From Natronoarchaeum mannanilyticum (GTDB lineage: Archaea > Halobacteriota > Halobacteria > Halobacteriales > Natronoarchaeaceae), in assembly GCF_039522665.1 (NCBI RefSeq), contig NZ_BAAADV010000001.1, positions 1,073,226 through 1,137,225 of the forward strand: a DNA stretch of 64,000 bases. Reading direction: 5' to 3'. Below are positions 25,544 to 53,848 of the stretch, piece after piece (the stretch's first letter is position 1; each line of letters starts with the position of its first letter). The translations under genes and the position numbers were made by a program. The notes beneath the pieces are model-generated. The model did not search any database. It was not told the origin of the DNA and saw only the letters and a program-made list of their open reading frames with translations.

Positions 25544-27265
25544 CTACACTGCGTCGGGCCCTCTGTTACCGGTGCGGACCTGCAGCGCGTCGTCGACCGG
25601 CAGCACGAAGATCTTCCCGTCGCCGGGCTCGCCCGTGTTGGCGCCCTCGCGGATCGCCTCGACGACCTCGTCGACGGGCGTGTCCGCGACGACGCACTCG
25701 AGTTTGACCTTCTGGTGGAGGTCGACCGTGTACTCCTCGCCGCGCCACTGGCCCTTCTTCGCGGGCTGGCTGCCGCGGCCGGAGACGTTCGTGACGGTCA
25801 GCGACGGCGCGCCGGCTTCGGCGAGCTGTTTCTTCACTTCGCCGAGACGGTCGGGGCGGATGATCGCCATGACCATCTTGATGTCGCCCTCCTCCTCGAC
25901 CGTGCCGCCGTCCGTGCGGATCTCTTTCCCGCCGTCAGAGCGGAGCTCTGACGAGGCCTGCGCTCCGGTGGAGCGCTGACCGCCGTCGGCGGCGATGTCG
26001 GGCTCGCCGAACTCGGGGTAGGTGTCGACGCCGTGTTCGGAGACGTCCAGCCCGTCACGCTCGTGTTCGGGGGAGACGCGGGCCTGACCGACGGCCTTGA
26101 ACGCGCCGAAGACGAGCGCGGTCGCGGCGACCGTCCAGACCGTGATGATCGAAACGCCGATGAACTGTGAGATGAACGCTTCGAGGATCGTCGTCCCTTC
26201 GAGCGCGCTAGACGTGGCGACGAAGGGGAACAGCAACGTCCCCAGAACGCCGGCGGAGCCGTGAACCGGGAACACCGCGCAGACGTCGTCGATCTTCAGG
26301 CGCTTCTCGACGAAGCTGAAGACGATCGGGAGCTGCGCGCCGGCGAGGCCGCCGACCACGAACGCGCCCCACCAGGTGGTGGTGTTGGGGATCGCGGTGA
26401 TGCCGACCAGACCGGCCAGCAGTCCGTTCGCGACGTACAGCGTGTCGACCTTACCGGTCTGGGCCCAGGCGACGAGCCCGGCGCCCATCGCACCGCAAGC
26501 CATCGCGATGGTCGTCGTCAGCGCGACGCGACCGAGCTGGTCGCCGAGGAAGACGCTCTCGCCGCTGAAGATCGCGGACGTACCGACGTTGAAGCCGTAC
26601 CAGCCGAACGCGAGGATCAGCGTCCCGAGCACGGCGAACGTCAGCGAGTGACCGGGAATGACGTTAGGCGTGCCGTCCTCGCTGTACCGGTCCATGCGCG
26701 GACCGAGCACCCACGCCGCGGTGAGGCCGGCGATGCCGCCCATGCCGTGAACGATCATCCCGCCTGCGAAGTCGGCGAAGCCGACGCCGACCGTGTTACC
26801 GAGCCAGCCGGTGCCCGTGAGTAGACCGCCGGTCGTCCAGCCGATGCCGGCGACGACGGGGTAGATGACCGCCGAGAGGGCGATCGTGTACCCGACGTAC
26901 GCGCGGAGTTTCGCGCGACCGGCGACCGCGCCGGAGACGATGGTCGCCGCCGTCATCGCGAACACGGCGCCGTACAGCCAGTTGTCCCAACCGGCGGCCG
27001 CGCTCTCGAACGTCCACGAGATGCCGGCGCCGCCGGCGAAGCCGGAGATCGTGGCACCGATCAAGAAGTACACCGTTACGCCGACCGACCAGGTCAGCAG
27101 GTTCTTCGTCAGCTGGTTCGCCACGTTCTTCGAGCGTACCTGACCGGCCTCCAGCATCGCGAAGCCCGCGTGCATGAAGAAGATCAGGAACGTCGCGACC
27201 AGCACCCACAGAGCGTTGACCGAGTCGATCAACGTCGGGATGTCCGCCTGAAGGGGAGCGATCAT
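25544..27265 (-). CDS. amt: Ammonium transporter fused to a P-II (GlnK) signalling domain
   Basis: A 573-residue fusion. Residues 1-395 are an Amt/Rh channel with about 11 membrane segments and the twin histidines His173 ([13 protein letters not shown]) and His335 (PVHGSAGV). Residues about 460-573 are a complete P-II domain ([19 protein letters not shown]) with a T-loop tyrosine Tyr512 ([14 protein letters not shown]) and the C-terminal [19 protein letters not shown]. In most organisms GlnK is a separate trimer that plugs the channel when nitrogen is plentiful; here three copies would be tethered. The linker (about 400-459) is encoded partly by two perfect hairpins. A GGAGG stands 7 nt before the ATG, which overlaps the stop of a 31-codon upstream ORF. 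Confidence 0.92.
25933..25953. repeat. Perfect hairpin in the Amt-GlnK linker
   Basis: Arms CGTCAGAGC and GCTCTGACG (9 nt) with the loop GGA, inside the coding region between the transporter and P-II domains. Confidence 0.8.
25960..25976. repeat. Second hairpin in the Amt-GlnK linker
   Basis: Arms GCGCTCC and GGAGCGC (7 nt, perfect) with the loop GGT, only 6 nt from the previous hairpin and also inside the linker-coding sequence. Confidence 0.75.
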
Positions 27266-27357
27266 GCTGCCACCTCCACGGACCGCGCGGTCCTCGGGGG
27301 CGAGGACCCGTAGTCGTCCACCAATTCACTCGTATTCCGAACGATCGTATCCTGCAT
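27262..27357 (-). CDS. Upstream ORF (31 codons) overlapping the amt-glnK start
   Basis: An ATG-initiated frame of 31 sense codons, beginning [17 protein letters not shown] and ending in Val-Ala-Ala, whose TGA overlaps the ATG of amt-glnK (ATGA). A TATA box on the minus strand (TTATATTA, about 27382-27389) lies about 29 nt upstream of its ATG, the spacing expected for a leaderless transcript starting at or next to this ATG. The peptide would be translated first, and amt would then be reached by coupling, helped by a GGAGG. It could be a regulatory leader peptide or a small protein. I see no similarity to a known family. Confidence 0.5.
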
Positions 27358-27671
27358 CACGGATAGGATTCAGGAAGTACATTAATATAAGGATTAGCGT
27401 TTACGTTCGTCTACTATCGAACTCCCTAATTGGAAATGCGGAGATGTCATAGTACGTTATACGTGTATAAGGTTGTTCGAAGTACGAACCGCGGCCTCTC
27501 TCGGTATATCTTTTGGACGCACGTCCACCGCGGTAACCGCGCAGGTTGCAGGCGTCCACCGTCGGAGCGCCGCGCGCCGCGGCGGCGTGCGCGCCGGTGC
27601 GGCGGCGCGGCGATGCGCGACAACACTCAACCCGGGGTACGTTTATTGCGCGTCGGCGCCGTGTCTCGGCC
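27266..27671. other. Intergenic region between amt-glnK and the cupin gene (406 nt)
   Basis: A divergent promoter region. The left third holds the 31-codon upstream ORF and TATA box of amt-glnK. Around 27360-27480 the sequence is markedly AT-richer than its surroundings. The right part is GC-rich and carries a TATA-like TTTATTG (about 27640-27646) some 27 nt before the cupin ATG. I see no RNA gene and no further convincing reading frame. Confidence 0.6.
27382..27389 (-). promoter_or_regulatory. TATA box of the uORF-amt-glnK transcript
   Basis: TTATATTA (minus strand) in a locally AT-rich stretch, about 29 nt before the upstream ORF's ATG. The distance fits a haloarchaeal TATA box about 25-27 nt before the transcription start. 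Confidence 0.6.
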
Positions 27672-28148
27672 ATGGAGAAAGTCGCGATCGAGAACGTCGA
27701 GACGGAGATCAACCCGATGCGGGTCCACAGCGTCCGCAAACCGGTCTCTCGCGCGCTCGGAACGACCGACGTCGCGATGAACTACTTCGAGCTCGAACCC
27801 GGCGAGTCCTTCTCGGGCGCGCTGCACACCCACGAGGACCAGGAGGAGATCTTCTACGTCGAAGACGGGACCGCGACGTTCGAGGTCGGCGTCGACCGCG
27901 AGACGGTCGACGTCGCGGCGGGCGAGCTGATCCGGTTCCCGCCCGGCGAGTTCCAGAAAGGGTCGAACGAGGGCGACGAGCGCGTCGTCGGCTGGGCGAT
28001 CGGCGCGCCGGGCGCCCGCCACGACTGGGACGACCTGTACTCGCGGGCGTACTGTCCGGAGTGCGAGAAGGAGACGACGCAGGACGTCGGGTTCGCGAGC
28101 GGACAGTTCGAACTCGAATGTACGGACTGTGGCTACGAGCAGGGGTAG
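27672..28148 (+). CDS. Cupin-domain protein with C-terminal zinc ribbon
   Basis: A 158-residue protein. Residues about 40-105 form a cupin barrel with a metal-type motif (GALHTHEDQEEIFYVEDG and RFPPGEFQKG), and a C-terminal treble of cysteines (YCPECEKE and CTDCGYEQG) makes a zinc ribbon. The cupin His/Glu set suggests metal binding, but no substrate can be named. Similar small cupins in haloarchaea are annotated only as cupin-domain proteins. The ATG at 27672 has a TATA-like TTTATTG about 27 nt upstream, indicating a leaderless mRNA. It converges on the secreted-protein gene that follows. Confidence 0.8.
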   Translation: MEKVAIENVETEINPMRVHSVRKPVSRALGTTDVAMNYFELEPGESFSGALHTHEDQEEIFYVEDGTATFEVGVDRETVDVAAGELIRFPPGEFQKGSNEGDERVVGWAIGAPGARHDWDDLYSRAYCPECEKETTQDVGFASGQFELECTDCGYEQG

Positions 28149-52492: not shown

Positions 52493-53848
52493 TCAGAACG
52501 TCTCGAGGTACTGGTCGTGCTCCCACTCGGAGACTTCGGCCTTGTACTCGTCGTACTCGGCCTGCTTGGCCTCGACGAACTTCTCGGCGACGTGCTCGCC
52601 GAGCGCGCTCGTGATGACCTCGTCGTCCTCGAGCTCGTCGATCGCGGCGCCGAGGTTCGGCGGCAGCGTCTCGATGCTGTACTCCTCGCGCTTCTCGGCG
52701 TCGAACTCGTAGATGTTCTCCCGAACCGGGTCGGGGCAGTCCAGCTCGCGCTTGACGCCGTCCAGACCGGCAGCGATCATGGCGGCGAGCGCGAGGTAGG
52801 GGTTGCACGACGGGTCGGGCGAGCGCAGCTCGACGCGGCTGGCCGCGGGGACGCGCGCGGCCGGCTTGCGGATCAGCGCCGAGCGGTTCACGTCCGACCA
52901 GGCGACGTAGACGGGCGCCTCGTAGCCCGGCACCAGGCGCTTGTAGCTGTTGACCGTCGGATTCGCGACCGCCGTGACGGCGGGCGCGTGGTCGAGGATG
53001 CCCGCGAGGAACTGCTTTGCGGTCTCGGAGAGGTTGAACTCGTCGTCGGCGTCGTGGAACGCGTTCTCGCCGTCCTCGGTGAACAGCGAGAGGTGCGTGT
53101 GCATCCCCGAGCCGTTGATGTGGGCGATCGGCTTGGGCATGAACGTCGCGTGGACGTCGTTGACTTCAGCCGTGGCGCGGACGACCGAGCGGAACGTCGC
53201 GATGTTGTCGGCCGTCGTCAGGCCGTCGTCGTACTTGAAGTCGATCTCGTGCTGGCCTTCCGCCACTTCGTGGTGGGAGGCCTCGACCTCGAAGTCCATG
53301 TCCTCGAGGTTGTAGATGATCTCCCGGCGCAGGTCGGAGGCGAGGTCCTTGGGCGCCAGATCGAAGTAGCCGCCGGCGTCGTGGGTCTCGGTGGTGGCGC
53401 GGCCGTCCTCGTCCTTGTCGAAGACGAAGAACTCCGGTTCGGGGCCGGCGTTGACCGTATAGCCCATCTCCTGGGCCTCCTCGAGGACGCTCTTGAGCAC
53501 GTGACGCGGATCGCCGCTGAACGGCTCGCCGGTCTTCGTGTCGTAGACGTCACAGATCAGGCGGGCCGCCTTCCCGCTCTCGGTGTTCCGCCACGGGAGG
53601 ACGGCGAACGTCGAGGGGTCGGGCACTAGACGCATGTCGGATTCCTGGATGCGGACGAACCCCTCGATCGAGGAGCCGTCGAAGTAGATCCCCTCGGTGA
53701 ACGCCTTCTCGGCCTGGTCGGCCGTGACGGAGACGTTCTTCACAGTGCCGAGAATGTCGGTGAACTGCAGGCGGAGGAAGTCGACGTCCTCCTCTTCGAT
53801 GCGAGCGAGTACGTCCCGTTCGTCGGACGTGAGGCTTTCGGATGCCAT
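52493..53848 (-). CDS. glnA: Glutamine synthetase, type I (alpha-like)
   Basis: A 451-residue enzyme that makes glutamine from glutamate and ammonium. Family motifs are [49 protein letters not shown] and the ATP-binding [20 protein letters not shown], followed by [20 protein letters not shown]. No adenylylation tyrosine region is obvious, consistent with the GSI-alpha type. The ATG at 53848 has a TTTAGTA-like box upstream and the palindrome at 53900-53911 further out. With Amt-GlnK elsewhere in the window it covers ammonium capture. Confidence 0.96.

Follow-up and report, generated by a model that had tools for sequence, protein, structure and literature searches.

The ammonium transporter gene of Natronoarchaeum mannanilyticum is preceded by a short upstream open reading frame (uORF) whose stop codon overlaps the amt start codon, and which is conserved in most of the haloarchaea examined as a frame (in its start, its reading frame, and its stop) but not as a peptide, since the encoded amino acids look neutral. 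We propose, with a probability of roughly two in three, that leaderless initiation at this uORF, followed by termination-reinitiation at its stop, carries ribosomes across an operator located downstream of the transcript start and onto amt, a mechanism that is putative at this gene and in which the peptide would be a by-product.

In the window (the whole stretch of 64,000 nucleotides analyzed), amt-glnK lies on the minus strand at positions 25544 to 27265 and encodes a fusion protein of 573 amino acids, with an ammonium transporter domain (PF00909) and a P-II domain (PF00543). The initial annotation had described a TATA box, an ATG that opens a frame of 31 codons, a TGA overlapping the amt ATG, and a GGAGG before amt, and all of these elements were confirmed on the minus strand: the TATA box CTTATATT at 27384 to 27391, the ATG at 27357, an ATGA overlap at 27262 to 27265 (uORF stop TGA at 27264 to 27262, amt start ATG at 27265 to 27263), and the Shine-Dalgarno (SD)-like sequence GGAGGTGG at 27270 to 27277, inside the uORF and before amt. 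Its view of the uORF start holds with regard to the leaderless-type spacing but probably not with regard to the codon. One codon upstream of the ATG, a GTG (27360 to 27358) begins exactly 31 nt after the first base of the TATA box, where relatives have their start codon, nearly always GTG, which makes 32 codons from the GTG the better reading. The predicted leaderless uORF (27262 to 27360, minus strand) would then probably start at GTG 27360 and not at ATG 27357, its second codon. The transcript start is predicted at 27360 as well, from the TATA spacing (a start codon stands at this distance in 110/152 loci, although the spacing is too sparsely calibrated on other genes) and from the C at position −1, which holds 90% of the genus weight over 130 loci. 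Directly before the SD, at 27280 to 27308 (minus strand), the window has a pair of mutually exclusive hairpin sequences of its own (GGTCCTCG/CGAGGACC and GGACCGCGCGGTCC), despite which the folding of the window's leader is not unusual (z = −0.70). A second CCTTATA element in the same direction lies at 27466 to 27472 (minus strand; −112 to −106 from the uORF start) and might serve as a further promoter or be bound by a regulator; it is conserved over 46 genera, its first four letters being C in 75%, C in 68%, T in 73%, and T in 63%.

For the comparison with relatives we used 159 haloarchaeal amt loci, 30 from one search and 129 places from another, the latter drawn from the higher-scoring of 200 matching genomes, with about 43 lower-scoring genomes left out. 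In 132 of the 159 loci, from 46 of 58 genera, an ATG or GTG located 30 to 34 nt after the TATA box opens a uORF whose stop overlaps the amt start; the genomes are related, and counting by genus corrects for this kinship only partly. The spacing is 31 nt in 111 of these loci, 34 nt in 10, 30 nt in 7, and 32 and 33 nt in 2 each, and the start codon is GTG in 119 and ATG in 13 (109 GTG and 2 ATG at 31 nt). Relative to amt, the uORF is in frame +1 in 130 loci and +2 in 2; its length varies between 22 and 50 codons, mostly 22 to 38, and the leader measures 68 to 149 nt in 130 loci, with a median of about 92 nt. The commonest class of stop/start overlap is 4 nt (76/130), an assignment that depends on the choice of the amt start, for which any in-frame ATG or GTG within about 70 nt near the aligned start was a candidate, while an SD-like string, counted down to four letters, is found in 119/130 loci. 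Both the TATA rule and the palindrome described below were shaped on an earlier set of loci (L002 to L111, after L001 was dropped as a duplicate of L002). In that set, 90/110 loci had an ATG or GTG 29 to 34 nt after a TATA-like 8-mer, opening an ORF that reaches over the amt start. Of the 129 loci added later, 21 have the same sequence (99.9%) as one of this set. Among the 95 loci less than 90% identical to any of L002 to L111, 84 have the layout, from 35 of 41 genera. The initial annotation had named the absence of the frame among relatives, in advance, as one result that would speak against it; the frame is kept. The stop/start overlap, and coupling as the likely role of the uORF, are supported as well.

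The 27 loci without the layout comprise nine from one genus (g21) in which a uORF of this kind stops 2 nt short of amt, 11 with an overlapping or adjacent ORF that has another start (a count not covered by the chance control), and seven (L026, L028, L030, L129, L218, L223, and L224) without any ORF of at least 12 codons whose end overlaps the amt start or comes within 3 nt of it. These last seven of the 159 loci imply that the uORF is dispensable. Spacings of 34 nt look like starts displaced downstream by one codon: an ATG at 34 nt is the start in 9 loci, and the codon at 31 nt is GTA or GCA in 7 of the 10. The layout also recurs in all four loci of the Haloferax amt2 paralogues (about 50% identity to the query), which are all close relatives; amt2 is the upstream amt copy in L087, L088, L093, and L110, with GTG at 31 nt, 27 codons, and a GTGA overlap. 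At amt itself, the uORF of the Haloferax loci L088, L093, and L110 begins with an ATG at TATA+31. In L087 and L149, ACG replaces the ATG present at the uORF start of sister Haloferax loci, and an in-frame ATG persists further on.

The conserved frame is not due to chance. The test that is free of any selection for the presence of an ORF is the leader length modulo 3. Measured from TATA+31 to the amt frame, with the best TATA per locus and no ORF required, this length is 2 modulo 3 in 130/152 loci (seven loci without a TATA-like site were left out of the 159) against 12 and 10 loci in the other two classes, and by majority 47 of 55 genera fall into the main class. Among the 95 more distant loci the corresponding numbers are 73/91 against 9 and 9, with 4 left out. 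A start codon is found at TATA+31 in 110 of the 152 loci, whereas most of the other distances have one in 1 to 6 loci. There are additional peaks at 34, 43, and 49 nt, all in the same frame as 31, and one at 18 nt in another frame. With a start codon at 30 to 32 or 34 nt there are 141 loci, 133 of which have it in frame +1 with an ORF ending at amt (123 overlapping and 10 within 12 nt). In dinucleotide shuffles that kept the start codon, the stop position, and the final 14 nt, the frame stayed open in 47.3 of the 130 loci on average and in 60 at most (200 shuffles), these loci having been chosen for their ORF, and the two other frames are open over the uORF span in 3/130 and 31/130 loci. Elsewhere in the genome the layout is rare. 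Of 321 crude gene calls, 42 come from the window and 279 from 400 kb of this genome, and a TATA-like site lies in range of 86; the layout was seen only at amt and at one gene with a weak TATA.

These counts speak to the possibility that only DNA elements matter here (promoter, start-region motif, and operator), so that the GTG would belong to a promoter motif and the frame would be open only incidentally. The conserved blocks are indeed nucleotide-like, and the C at −1 and the GTGA are strongly fixed. However, DNA sites do not need a leader whose length is nearly fixed modulo 3 while its absolute length varies more than twofold, and both a frame open far beyond the shuffles and stops that land on the amt start likewise count against this explanation, which we consider unlikely.

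The uORF stop lies where termination-reinitiation would have it, overlapping amt in 132/159 loci and ending 2 nt before it in 9 more. In Haloferax volcanii, all nine tested gene pairs with overlaps or near-contacts were reported to be strictly coupled (PMC6728339, Huber et al. 2019); coupling weakens sharply as the distance grows, and it needs no more of the upstream gene than the last 15 nt (PMC10666635). SD motifs are stated to be nonfunctional for de novo initiation in haloarchaeal 5′-UTRs, and when the SD within the upstream gene was removed in H. volcanii, the outcome for coupling differed widely, ranging from a strong loss to a gain (PMC6728339). The amt locus resembles these overlapping pairs in its 4-nt or 1-nt stop/start overlap with an SD inside the upstream frame (PMC6728339, PMC10666635), and translation of the downstream gene would likewise be expected to depend on the upstream frame (PMC6728339); it differs in that this upstream frame is a predicted leaderless ORF of mostly 22 to 38 codons without a conserved product and with an operator-like palindrome inside. 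Alternatively, the uORF could be a brake, a weak GTG start lowering amt translation or making it depend on how leaderless initiation fares. The strong preference for GTG over ATG (119 versus 13) fits such a role and would be odd if strong ribosome loading were the aim, but the 1- and 4-nt overlaps are the very classes tied to coupling in H. volcanii (PMC6728339, PMC10666635), and a brake would have no need of an SD before amt. We hold a brake to be unlikely.

There is no detectable constraint on the uORF peptide. Over 33 nearest-relative pairs, the pN/pS ratio is 0.74 in the uORF against 0.73 and 0.86 in the shifted frames, whereas the first codons of amt, compared between the same species, gave 0.17; excluding the motifs, the uORF value is 0.76 against 0.71 and 0.87. 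Substitutions at codon positions 1, 2, and 3 number 144, 120, and 116 in the uORF and 70, 30, and 175 in amt. A smaller set of 23 pairs had given 0.63 versus 0.74 and 0.79, but the gap vanished with 33 pairs and weak peptide selection is therefore not claimed. The purifying selection on amino acids that would mark a small protein was thus not found in the 33 pairs. Codon 6 is mostly A-N-C (AAC, ATC, ACC, or AGC), with a free middle base and a mostly kept third base, the reverse of what peptide selection would leave. Over 46 genus weights, codon 15 is GAC (27.8) or AAC (6.4), with GAT outside the nine commonest codons, and codon 17 is CGT (22.1), TGT (7.9), or CGG (1.5), with CGC outside the nine commonest; the scarcity of synonyms at both codons means that DNA letters are conserved. 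The C-terminal Glu-Val of the uORF is the SD.

The initial annotation had envisaged a conserved overlapping ORF with synonymous-only changes, of which the conserved ORF was borne out and the synonymous bias was not; its two suggested products, a nitrogen-responsive leader peptide and a small coupled protein, are both rejected on this substitution pattern, the conserved stretches behaving as nucleotide motifs. In the former, stalling or speed of the ribosome in the uORF would sense glutamine or another metabolite and gate amt like an attenuator. The position and overlap of the uORF would suit this, as would the commonest residues at positions 2 to 6 (I, Q, N, T, N), but besides the missing synonymous bias and the pattern at codon 6, Gln makes up 3.8% in frame versus 3.5 and 3.4% in the other frames and Asn 6.3 versus 5.6 and 4.1%, and neither a conserved run of sensor codons nor an arrest peptide was found in the uORF across loci. 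Nor does the leader give a structure signal: the mean MFE z score over 71 loci is +0.26, and conserved alternative RNA structures, as judged by folding energy only, did not emerge (z below −2 in 2/71 leaders and above 2 in 4/71). An Rfam search of positions 26800 to 28000 returned three matches, all sub-threshold, and hence no riboswitch or other known RNA family at the gathering score. An RNA attenuator is rejected on the absent structure signal and the lack of an Rfam family, and we give a nitrogen-sensing leader peptide little chance. Leaderless polycysteine sORFs of mycobacteria, reportedly described by Canestrari et al. in 2020 as attenuators in which a codon run senses cysteine, are likewise leaderless short ORFs upstream of a metabolic operon, but the amt uORF conserves neither an amino acid nor a run of codons. 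A functional small protein produced along with Amt-GlnK and comparable to sP36 of Methanosarcina mazei, an archaeal precedent of 61 amino acids that binds AmtB1 and GlnK1 and is thus also a small ORF linked to ammonium transport (PMC10714827), would find its gene within the predicted amt transcript, but is highly improbable given a uORF peptide that is unconserved even between near relatives, varies from 22 to 50 codons, and has no Pfam match at 0.001.

What the initial annotation had not described is a palindrome, TGGACGNNCGTCCA, at a fixed position inside the uORF, +40 from its start, which recurs at −53, −83, and, more weakly, −167. In the window, the candidate operator at +40 to +53 (27307 to 27320, minus strand) reads TGGACGACTACGGG, with the left half intact and the right half degenerate. 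Upstream copies are found at −53 (TAGACGAACGTAAA, 27400 to 27413, minus strand, 9/12) and at −167 (TGGACGTGCGTCCA, 27514 to 27527, no strand assigned, 12/12), and the window has no site of at least 8/12 at −83. Across loci, the palindrome at +40 scores at least 8/12 in 89/130 loci (33 of 46 genera), compared to 0 to 1 of 130 at seven control offsets, and its mean score of 8.0/12 stands 7.0 sd above a background of 2.9. A score of at least 8/12 at +40 is also reached in 60 of 82 more distant loci and in 28 of 32 loci of L032 to L111 without a near twin. The distance from the start is constant over uORF classes of 22 to 26, 28 to 30, 31 to 33, and at least 34 codons, as would be expected of a transcription-factor operator. 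At the other offsets the signal in the 159-genome set amounts to 4.0 sd at −53 and 2.7 sd at −83, with −167 seventh at 2.1 sd behind +9, +36, and −43; in the 80 loci of L032 to L111, 25 of which are matched by a twin among the 159, the top four offsets are +40, −53, −167, and −83. Copies that lie upstream of the TATA box suggest an element that acts as DNA and not as RNA, and we infer that the palindrome is a putative operator for a regulator of amt. The remaining 41/130 uORF loci score below 8/12 at +40. Among the seven loci that lack a uORF, 7 to 8/12 is retained at this offset in three but not in the other four, when the best among several TATA-like sites is used. The +40 site and the uORF are hence only loosely tied across loci, which counts against the part of our proposal that makes the uORF the means of crossing the operator.

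In the mechanism that we favor, the amt-glnK message would begin at or within a few bases of the GTG (or ATG), and the leaderless uORF, of mostly 22 to 38 codons, would be translated from the 5′ end of the message. The ribosome would terminate at the stop overlapping the amt start (or, in one genus, 2 nt before it) and reinitiate there with the help of the SD. The operator at +40 to +53 would be one of a palindrome set (−167, −83, −53, and +40) for a regulator, probably the one shutting amt off on ammonium. The leader would exist because the DNA operator must sit downstream of the transcript start, and it would be open and in frame because an SD in the 5′-UTR reportedly does not support de novo initiation in haloarchaea; given a leader of about 92 nt, the steep dependence of coupling on distance, and no functional SD in the 5′-UTR, amt should be poorly translated unless the leader is translated. 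The shortest leader among the 130 loci (68 nt) just clears the operator and the SD. Moreover, the A+C content is 0.68 at +9 to +19 versus 0.49 further on, which is consistent with a bacterial feature, CA repeats near the start, that is described as enhancing the translation of leaderless mRNAs (review PMC9031893).

It is tempting to link the palindromes to the ammonium switch of these genes. In Haloferax mediterranei, amtB-glnK transcripts were reported on nitrate but not on ammonium; this switch does not require GlnK, and the authors invoke a novel mechanism for it (PMC3831643). Nitrogen control might act via the operator, and the palindrome set thus offers a concrete bait for the regulator that switches haloarchaeal amt off on ammonium. 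The upstream regions of amt1 and amt2 were among the motif inputs of PMC6801745, where, in the sections available, the motif reported is a different, AT-rich one; the available sections of the H. mediterranei Lrp study (PMC8229911) and of the nasABC study (PMC8143581) contain no amt promoter test. Should our proposal be correct, transcriptional and translational control of ammonium uptake would share one 100-nt element. We extend it to the whole class only tentatively: in archaea where an SD in the 5′-UTR reportedly fails to start translation, a gene dependent on an operator beyond its transcript start might be able to keep it only by using a contentless leaderless ORF as its leader, with selection acting on the frame, start, and stop instead of the peptide, and with coding DNA doubling as a fixed-position operator.

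Short ORFs of 15 to 31 amino acids, comparable to the amt uORF, have been listed in long 5′-UTRs of H. volcanii (Babski et al. 2016, PMC4983044), but those 5′-UTRs measure 150 to 250 nt, none of the 16 genes that the survey lists is named as amt, and its uORF section gives no conservation test. Among the literature matches listed, there was no description of a uORF before amt in haloarchaea; this coverage did not extend to the two H. volcanii papers, on ribosome profiling and the small proteome, in which one would most likely appear, and does not establish its absence from print. The present case bears on whether conserved archaeal uORFs are selected for translation itself and not for the encoded product, as uORFs of this kind would escape searches for conserved peptides.

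Beyond amt, the strict form of the palindrome, TRGACRNNYGTCYA, occurs at two places in the genome, one upstream of amt and the other inside an ORF of L261. A reversed control pattern also occurs twice, and the motif alone is therefore no genome-wide predictor. A scan for site pairs at −53 and +40 over the window plus 400 kb yielded one weak non-amt place, but at the threshold used the amt of the window itself went undetected and just 31/130 amt loci qualify, so that the scan tells little. In the same window, glnA (52493 to 53848, minus strand) is near-leaderless and has no uORF, and the amt palindrome array was not seen in 30 glnA loci from a 59-genome search. At about −94 of glnA, TTTACGAATRTCCA, which is among the two best sites in at least 10 of 30 haloarchaeal loci, resembles half of the amt palindrome.
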